This document shows positions 12,572-14,953 of a stretch of DNA of 50,412 nucleotides, piece after piece (positions within the stretch are counted from its first letter, which is position 1; each line of letters opens with the position of its first letter). A model generated the notes under the pieces. The model did not search any database, was not told the origin of the DNA, and was given only the letters and a program-made list of their open reading frames with translations. The translations under genes and the position numbers were made by a program. This stretch comes from a virus, in IMG/VR virus record IMGVR_UViG_3300049203_000028, positions 1 through 50,412 of that record. One strand, written 5' to 3'.

Positions 12572-13792
12572 ATGTACCCATCCATCAAAGCTGCTGCCGA
12601 GGATAAAGCGAACGACGCCGTCAGCAAATCTACGCCGACGTTCCTGATCGATCCTCGCGCCGTCAAGGTCCAGGACGGATTCAACGCCCGCCCGATCGAC
12701 CCCGATCATGTGGCGTACCTAAAGCGCCTGAAAAAGTCCGGCGTCGACACGGGGGAGTACACCGTGCAGATGATCGACGGTGAGATTTACCTGCGTGACG
12801 GCCATCACCGTCACGCTGCCGACATGCAACTCATTGCCGAGGGTGAACCGATCCTTCGCGTCAAGGCGAAAGAGTTCAAAGGTGACGAGAAGGCCGCAAT
12901 CTTCTACATGCTCGGAACGCAGTCGGGAAAGGGTTACACTCCGCTCCAGGTGGGCGAACAGTACGTCAAGTTGGTGAACCTCTTTGGCATGTCGTACGAA
13001 GAGATCGCCGAGCAACGCGGTATGAGCGCGCAGCACGTCAAGGACGCTATCCGCCTGACCGAACAGCCCGTCGAACTGAAGACCGCCATCAACGAAGGCG
13101 TCATCACGTCATCGACGGCACTCAAGCTGGTCAAGAAGGTGGGTTCGACGGAAGCCGTCAAGACTATCAAACAGGCCGCCGCGCAACCCGGCGTCAAGGT
13201 TGGCAAACCCATTACGCAGAAGGTTATCGACAAGCTCGGAGACAGCTACATCGACGAGTCGAAGAAGAAGAAATCCGAATGTTCATTGCACCTGTCGGCC
13301 ATGTTGGAGTCGCCCGCATTCGACGCTGGAACAAAAGCCGCAATACGCCGAGTTCTCGACCTCGTCGACGGAAAGACGCTCGCCATCCCGCGCGACAAGG
13401 CTGCGGACAAGGCTGCGGTTGAAGCGTTCATCGAAGAACAGAAGGGTCACAAGAACAACGGCGTCAGCGTGGCCGCGCACCTGTTGTCCGATGTTCTCGC
13501 AAAGCGCCCCTTGCCGGAAGACGGAAGTCCCGGCGCGCGCTCGTACGGGCATCACGTGTGGTTGCAGGAAATGGCCGCCAGCAGCCAAAAGCCGACCTTC
13601 CGCGCTGCCGCGCACTGGTTCCTTGCGGTACTCAACGCCGATCGTAGCGGGGCAGAAGTTGCGGCCGCACCATCCGTGCTGGGTCCGGTCGCGGCGCTGC
13701 AGGCCGAGCGCGAAAGCGGCGGTCACGTGCTGGCTGAAACGCTGTGCCCGGAGCATGCGTCGCTGATCGCCTGGGCGCGGGGTCGGGCGTGA
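12572..13792 (+). CDS. ParB/Srx-like nuclease-domain protein
   Basis: The 406-residue protein has an N-terminal ParB-like domain (NARPIDPDHVAYLKRLKKSG, then IYLRDGHHRHAADM, the GxRR/H-like motif region at about residues 70-80), followed by a helix-turn-helix of the ParB core (MSYEEIAEQRGMSAQHVKDAIRL). The C-terminal 200 residues are helical and lack a known family. Phage ParB-like proteins can act as nucleases, CTP-dependent DNA binders or transcription factors, and the sequence does not decide between these. GGAG is ten bases before the ATG. The methyltransferase GTG overlaps its stop (GTGA). Confidence 0.85.
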   Translation: MYPSIKAAAEDKANDAVSKSTPTFLIDPRAVKVQDGFNARPIDPDHVAYLKRLKKSGVDTGEYTVQMIDGEIYLRDGHHRHAADMQLIAEGEPILRVKAKEFKGDEKAAIFYMLGTQSGKGYTPLQVGEQYVKLVNLFGMSYEEIAEQRGMSAQHVKDAIRLTEQPVELKTAINEGVITSSTALKLVKKVGSTEAVKTIKQAAAQPGVKVGKPITQKVIDKLGDSYIDESKKKKSECSLHLSAMLESPAFDAGTKAAIRRVLDLVDGKTLAIPRDKAADKAAVEAFIEEQKGHKNNGVSVAAHLLSDVLAKRPLPEDGSPGARSYGHHVWLQEMAASSQKPTFRAAAHWFLAVLNADRSGAEVAAAPSVLGPVAALQAERESGGHVLAETLCPEHASLIAWARGRA

Positions 13793-14619
13793 TCGCGTAT
13801 TACAACGAGTTCGACCCGTACGCCGCAGCTTGGATACGCAACCTCATTAACGCCGGCCTGATCGCGCCCGGCATCGTAGACGAAAGGAGTATCGAAGATG
13901 TCCGCCCCGATGACCTTGACGGCTTTACCCAATGCCATTTCTTCGCAGGACTCGGAGGATGGTCTTATGCTCTTCGCGCTGCCGGATGGCCAGATCATCG
14001 ACGCGTATGGACGGCTTCATGCCCGTGCCAGCCTTACAGCGCGGCAGGTGAAGGCGGCGGGTTTGCTGACGAGCGGCACCTATGGCCCCATTTCTTCCAC
14101 ATCTTGCGCGAGCAAAAGCGCAGACCTGAATCAATCTTTGGTGAGCAGGTTGCAAGCAAATTTGCGGAACCTTGGGTCGACCTTGTACACGCTGACGTGG
14201 AAGCCTTGGGTTACGCCTTCGGGTGTATCCCGTTCCCGTCTGCGAGCATCGGCGCCCCGCACATCCGGGACCGCCTGTACTGGCTGGCCGACGCCGATGG
14301 CACACGAAGCGCGGCTGGGCTACCAGCGCAGGGACACGGGCAAGAAGGGAACGCAGGAATCGCTAACCACGGTGGTGATCAATTCGGTGGGCCAGCGCGA
14401 GCACCTGCCAGCGCACCAGCCGGCCCGACTAACGGTTTCTGGCGTGCTGCTGACTGGCTCGCGTGCCGGGATGGAAAGTGGCGGCCGGTTGAACCCGGCA
14501 CATTCCCGTTGGTTAATAGGGCTCCCGCCAGAATGGGACGCCTGCGCGCCTACGGCAACGCGATCAACGTCGAGCAAGCGCGCATCTTCATCCAAACCGC
14601 AATGAGCGTGCTAGACTAA
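13789..14619 (+). CDS. dcm: C5-cytosine DNA methyltransferase
   Basis: The 276-residue protein has the motifs in order: motif [14 protein letters not shown] (50-62), motif [12 protein letters not shown] with catalytic C80, motif VI GEQV (118-121), motif VIII-like RDRLYWLA (160-167) and C-terminal motif [11 protein letters not shown]. It should methylate cytosine to protect phage DNA from host restriction. The N-terminus ([18 protein letters not shown]) is typical of phage Dcm proteins. The GTG start overlaps the previous stop. The target-recognition region is short. A second ORF with a strong ribosome binding site (13898-14605) lies entirely inside it in another frame, so this DNA codes twice. 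Confidence 0.92.
13898..14605 (+). CDS. Embedded gene inside the methyltransferase gene
   Basis: This 235-codon ORF runs in the +1 frame of the methyltransferase gene and lies wholly within it. It is more than a chance open frame for two reasons. AAAGGAG sits eight bases before its ATG, and its product shows blocks I recognise from phage proteins annotated next to cytosine methyltransferases ([53 protein letters not shown]). The C-terminus is Ser/Arg/Lys-rich, as expected from overprinting. The function is unknown. A partner of the methyltransferase, an anti-restriction factor or a DNA-binding protein are all possible. Expression is inferred, not shown. Confidence 0.6.
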
Positions 14620-14647: not shown

Positions 14648-14953
14648 ATGGCACGAATGACCCCGACCGACCGCAAGGCGGCAATCCTCGACGCGGCTGT
14701 TGCCGCAGCCAAGAAGCACGGCTTTGCGCGCTTGCGCCTCGTCCACATTGCGGAGCAAGCCCAGTGCAGTAACGCCCTGGTCGTGTCCCATTACGGGACC
14801 ATGGCGCAGATGCGCCGCGCCGTTATGCGCGCGGCCGTCAAACAAGAAATCCTGCCCATCATCGCCGAGGGGATCGCCACGCGCGACCCTGTGGCGTGCA
14901 AGGCTTCCGCCGACCTGCAGCGCAAAGCCCTCGCCACGCTCGCGGCGGGGTGA
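14648..14953 (+). CDS. TetR-like HTH protein, short form
   Basis: This 101-residue protein matches the N-terminal DNA-binding domain of TetR regulators: RKAAILDAAVAAAKKHGF, LRLVHIAEQAQCSNALVVSHYGTMAQMRRAVM, which is the three-helix HTH and its linker. The large ligand-binding domain that makes TetR proteins about 200 residues is absent, and only a short helical tail follows. It could bind an operator without an inducer or act as a dominant partner of a host regulator. AGGAAA lies about nine bases before the ATG. It is placed between the methyltransferase and primase genes and is a good candidate for a phage transcription switch. Confidence 0.75.
   Translation: MARMTPTDRKAAILDAAVAAAKKHGFARLRLVHIAEQAQCSNALVVSHYGTMAQMRRAVMRAAVKQEILPIIAEGIATRDPVACKASADLQRKALATLAAG

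Follow-up and report, generated by a model that had tools for sequence, protein, structure and literature searches.

M.EcoHK31I, a C5 methyltransferase of the sequence YGGCCR, is made up of two polypeptides, and its smaller gene reportedly lies nested within the larger one in another frame, an arrangement attributed to Lee, Kam and Shaw in 1995. The alpha chain of this enzyme carries motifs I to VIII and X along with the predicted target recognition domain (TRD), and motif IX is found only in the smaller polypeptide, beta (PMC3404938). A second natural alpha/beta C5 enzyme, M.AquI, is split after motif VIII (PMC3404938), and its beta chain bears both IX and X. Here we describe an overlapping gene pair with the first of these layouts, located in a 50,412-base IMG/VR virus record of 60% GC, the whole of which we refer to as the window. 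The large chain has motifs I to VIII and X, a motif IX-like block resides in the small chain (as judged by motif scan and a chain of profile comparisons), and the gene for the small chain lies within that for the large one, in a different frame. The likeness to M.EcoHK31I is one of published layout, and there are differences: M.EcoHK31I is a bacterial enzyme whereas the window pair is phage-borne, and its TRD is in the larger subunit whereas the window pair has a WPTP variable region in beta too. Unlike M.AquI, the window pair keeps motif X in the alpha frame, which sets it apart from the AquI type. We consider it highly probable that the product of the nested open reading frame (ORF) serves as the beta subunit in an M.EcoHK31I-type C5-cytosine methyltransferase made of two polypeptides.

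The larger gene (alpha, or dcm) occupies positions 13789 to 14619 of the plus strand, on which all features of the pair given below also lie, and encodes 276 residues from a GTG. Its reading frame is free of stops from 13744 on, the homologous start being the GTG at 13789. The smaller gene (beta) spans 13898 to 14605 in the +1 frame relative to dcm, from an ATG at 13898-13900 to a stop codon that ends at 14605, and encodes 235 residues. A Shine-Dalgarno sequence, AAAGGAG (13883 to 13889), falls within dcm codons 32-34, with 8 nt between it and this ATG. The nested gene, its frame and its ribosome binding site (RBS) are exactly as claimed in the original prediction, which was made from the letters of the window. 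Directly 5' of dcm is a gene for a ParB-like protein (12572-13792), the stop of which overlaps the dcm GTG start; a ParB-like gene likewise lies just upstream in Bas80 (locus L165). Just 3' of dcm, positions 14648-14953 encode a small protein with an N-terminal TetR-type DNA-binding domain (PF00440, E-value 1.2e-5; PHROG 8723).

The length of the nested ORF is by itself little proof of a gene, since the GC-rich window contains many long spurious ORFs. Their abundance speaks for chance, that is, for a spurious long ORF whose frame stays free of stops through GC-rich codon use and the conserved dcm protein; this conservation also partly forces similarity in the N-terminal part of the +1 product. 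Within the window alone, permutation of synonymous dcm codons leaves the stretch open with a probability of about 0.005, with 3.6 stops expected. The original prediction was to fall if the second frame of homologous dcm genes proved to be freely interrupted by stops. Instead, the +1 frame of 142 homologous loci contains 0 stops versus 551 expected, a comparison in which the loci are related and hence are not independent trials, although the margin is nonetheless very large. The +2 frame of the same 142 loci shows no avoidance of stops (1860 seen, 1575 expected). In a non-redundant set of 75 loci, retrieved solely with the dcm protein, every +1 frame is open, while synonymous permutation predicts 0.63 open loci.

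Synonymous constraint across homologous dcm genes, the other check that had been proposed, gives a concordant result. In 20-codon bins, observed synonymous divergence is 0.37-0.71 of that expected over dcm codons 77-256, a zone of strong constraint (14017 to 14556) corresponding to beta residues of about 41-219. Values of 0.85-0.95 are found for dcm outside the overlap and for the first 40 codons of the overlap, and divergence rises back to 0.87-0.89 of expectation at the end of dcm. A column test on 57 divergent representatives (<72% identity) returns a median observed-to-expected synonymous diversity of 0.42 inside the zone versus 0.93 outside (p = 1.8e-17). At fourfold-degenerate dcm sites, the corresponding ratios are 0.25 and 0.93 (p = 1.5e-11). 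Chance, to which we attach next to no probability, is already refuted by the stop counts and this fourfold-site constraint.

The nested start is ATG in 119 of 135 aligned homologs. The dcm codons underlying the start signals are over-used: Asp37 is GAT, which makes the nested ATG, in 50 of 56 representatives (background 39%), and Arg33 is AGG, which makes AGGAG, in 26 of 57 (background 9%). Together, these codon choices and the retention of ATG indicate that both the nested start and its RBS are under selection. A Shine-Dalgarno-like core is present in 34 of the 45 representatives with a nested ATG. Some homologs, such as those at loci L001, L003 and L012, have CGATCG codons and so are without AGGAG at this position; the ATG is retained in L001 and L003, and L012 has ATA. 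The conservation of the open frame, the constraint on synonymous sites and the conserved start and RBS all agree, and strongly support the reading that the nested +1 gene is real and that two proteins share one stretch of DNA, with dual coding under selection. To this extent, the original interpretation holds.

The alpha chain has the hallmarks of a C5 methyltransferase, namely motifs I, IV (PCQ), VI, VIII and X together with a catalytic fold match. It matches PF00145 above the cutoff (E-value 1.6e-9) and PHROG 363 (1.1e-80), a profile search finds M.HhaI (6e-18), and its AF2 model matches the structure of M.HhaI (4.9e-8). In an alignment of 98 alphas, PCQP, EQV and GNA are invariant. The first of these, motif IV with the catalytic Cys, was placed at 14023 to 14034 by sequence and alignment, and the last comprises the G, N and A of motif X (GNAI, 14554 to 14565). 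Motif IX is absent from the consensus of the 98 alphas, and alpha aligns with single-chain methyltransferases over their N-terminal catalytic region only.

Beta is a member of PHROG 1008 (E-value 3.2e-27) and PHROG 31772, which are matched by 102 of 102 and 98 of 102 of its homologs, respectively, and the protein blocks singled out in the original prediction are conserved motifs of this real family. Both PHROGs are labeled DNA methyltransferase, a label that is silent on encoding in the +1 frame of dcm. No family in Pfam or NCBIfam, regulator families included, matches beta, and its profile, run with hmmsearch on the sequences of the PDB, returned no matches. The AF2 model of beta alone has a pLDDT of 59, with fair confidence only for a helix (71-92) and a hairpin (98-118), and Foldseek gave no fold match for it. 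As seen in alignments, a variable, TRD-like region follows WPTP (14285 to 14296), which is repeated from one to several times among homologs. The C-terminus consists of a 13-residue motif IX-like block (residues 198-210; 14489 to 14527), which lies 62 nt 5' of the dcm-frame motif X match, and then a short tail.

The relation of this block to motif IX was traced by profile comparison. The beta profile matches a firmicute-type phage +1 family (E-value 9e-22, positions 37-243), which in turn matches motif IX of actinophage single-chain methyltransferases (6.3e-12) and the canonical RRLTPLECERLMGFP of motif IX (3.7e-5). Compared directly, the beta profile reaches 6.4e-4 with the actinophage motif IX block and 0.17, which is not significant, with canonical motif IX. 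The beta block is thus linked to canonical motif IX transitively, by way of intermediate families. The +1 block takes an LNPxWVEWLMGFP-like form in distant phages (Lacticaseibacillus, Paenibacillus, phage C72C1). A regular-expression scan for motif IX missed a minority of loci, among them the window, which has I for M. Since one stretch of DNA serves both frames, some +1 similarity follows from the conservation of alpha, and comparisons with shuffled codons were used as the control. When the firmicute codons are shuffled, only the N-terminal part of beta still aligns (1.6e-9), and the C-terminal half drops out; some of the shuffled actinophage comparisons yielded degenerate one-column alignments, which we disregarded. 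Cross-family homology of the N-terminal half of beta was rejected, since the shuffled controls still align there. Homology across families is therefore claimed for the motif IX part only, and beyond that part the case rests on synonymous constraint, not on similarity, part of which the overlap itself imposes.

Since profile comparison ties this C-terminal block to C5-methyltransferase motif IX, we prefer a second subunit over the anti-restriction partner or regulator first suggested, the part of the original interpretation that is not supported. An independent protein of either kind, its overlap with dcm being incidental, would agree with a product that is real and under selection, as well as with the separate constrained +1 ORF, described below, in methyltransferases that already have motif IX. 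Nevertheless, its C-terminus would happen to be motif IX-like while alpha is without that motif, and the lack of a regulator family in Pfam and NCBIfam also counts against it. Furthermore, beta is never found without alpha among the bacterial genome loci picked by beta: 80 of 80 also encode alpha, 77 of them with a long overlap; the other three were found by the overlap test to be degraded or frame-disrupted copies, and none of the 80 has beta without an overlapping dcm. We regard an independent function as unlikely. In an Arsenophonus endosymbiont genome (L358), the copy is degraded, with both frames interrupted by stops. A search of genome contigs with the alpha of phage C72C1 found nothing.

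In the two-polypeptide enzyme that we favor, ribosomes would start independently on one mRNA, at GTG 13789 for alpha and at ATG 13898 for beta. Alpha would bind SAM and contribute the catalytic Cys and motif X; beta would contribute motif IX and probably target recognition, or a part of it, through the WPTP variable region. The two chains, both presumably needed, would come together as an active enzyme for methylation of the phage DNA, plausibly as a means to evade host restriction. If beta is obligate, orphan phage methyltransferases cloned or assayed with only the dcm frame would seem inactive, and methylome predictions made from dcm-frame genes would be wrong.

Programmed frameshifting from frame 0 of dcm to +1, and perhaps back, would instead yield one longer methyltransferase and no separate subunit. 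It would fit the collinear place of motif IX, between VIII and X and merely in another frame, and the fusion of IX and X in frame 0 in some actinophages. We nevertheless hold it to be improbable: beta has its own ATG and RBS, conserved at synonymous sites, its start is far 5' of motif IX in an overlap that spans motifs IV-VIII, and two shifts would be needed to regain frame 0 for motif X. Motif IX is placed in one of two modes: it lies in +1, 62 nt from an X in frame 0, or it shares the frame of X, as in single-chain and AquI-like genes. In the inspected homologs of the nested class, to which our two-subunit reading applies, 62 nt separate the start of the block from the motif X match downstream. 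Several frame-swapped copies (L147, L210, L219, L350 and L362) have an indel in the variable region, through which the N-terminal part of alpha or beta is attached to the other tail; where measured, the tail keeps the 62-nt relation of IX to X.

The arrangement recurs in hundreds of phages and prophages and is absent from most of the annotations seen here. By tblastn, the nested protein is present in 229 phage records. In phage K1G, where the Mte8-like protein of K1 phages (ADA82276) is nested at the same position, both genes are annotated, the nested one with no assigned function. For PMG1 and FoX4, the nested ORF is listed instead of the dcm frame, and for Haboob, BcepC6B and others, dcm only. 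Thus, in many phage and prophage genomes, a real gene is either unannotated or annotated in the place of dcm. A literature search, with most subscription papers outside its reach, found no paper on the nested gene in phages. The kind of arrangement is known; what is new is its scale, together with its absence from most annotations. As an instance of dual coding, in which both parts of an enzyme would be read from the same DNA, the locus is sampled unusually well.

A different +1 ORF, of about 128 residues (YYLSPKTAxGILRRA...), occurs in single-chain C5 methyltransferases (loci L364-L443, L250 and L247). Its hosts are ordinary single-chain enzymes with motif IX in frame 0, and profile comparison detected no relation between this family and the beta family. 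Synonymous diversity is 0.16 inside this ORF versus 0.83 outside (p = 5.5e-22). Since a constrained +1 ORF exists in methyltransferases that already have motif IX, the +1 genes of phage methyltransferases may do more than supply that motif. A broader proposal, that nested +1 genes are a general and ancient trait of phage C5 methyltransferases and that the overlap has a second function besides completing the enzyme, is possible, but we are inclined to doubt it. Among actinophage methyltransferases (L254-L283 and L177-L179), some are single-chain, with TRD, IX and X all in frame 0, yet retain a +1 ORF. Actinophages such as WillSterrel encode the motif IX block in frame 0, with motif X behind it in a single chain. 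Others, including Smooch (L179), L275 and L279, are split in an AquI-like manner, with IX and X in +1.
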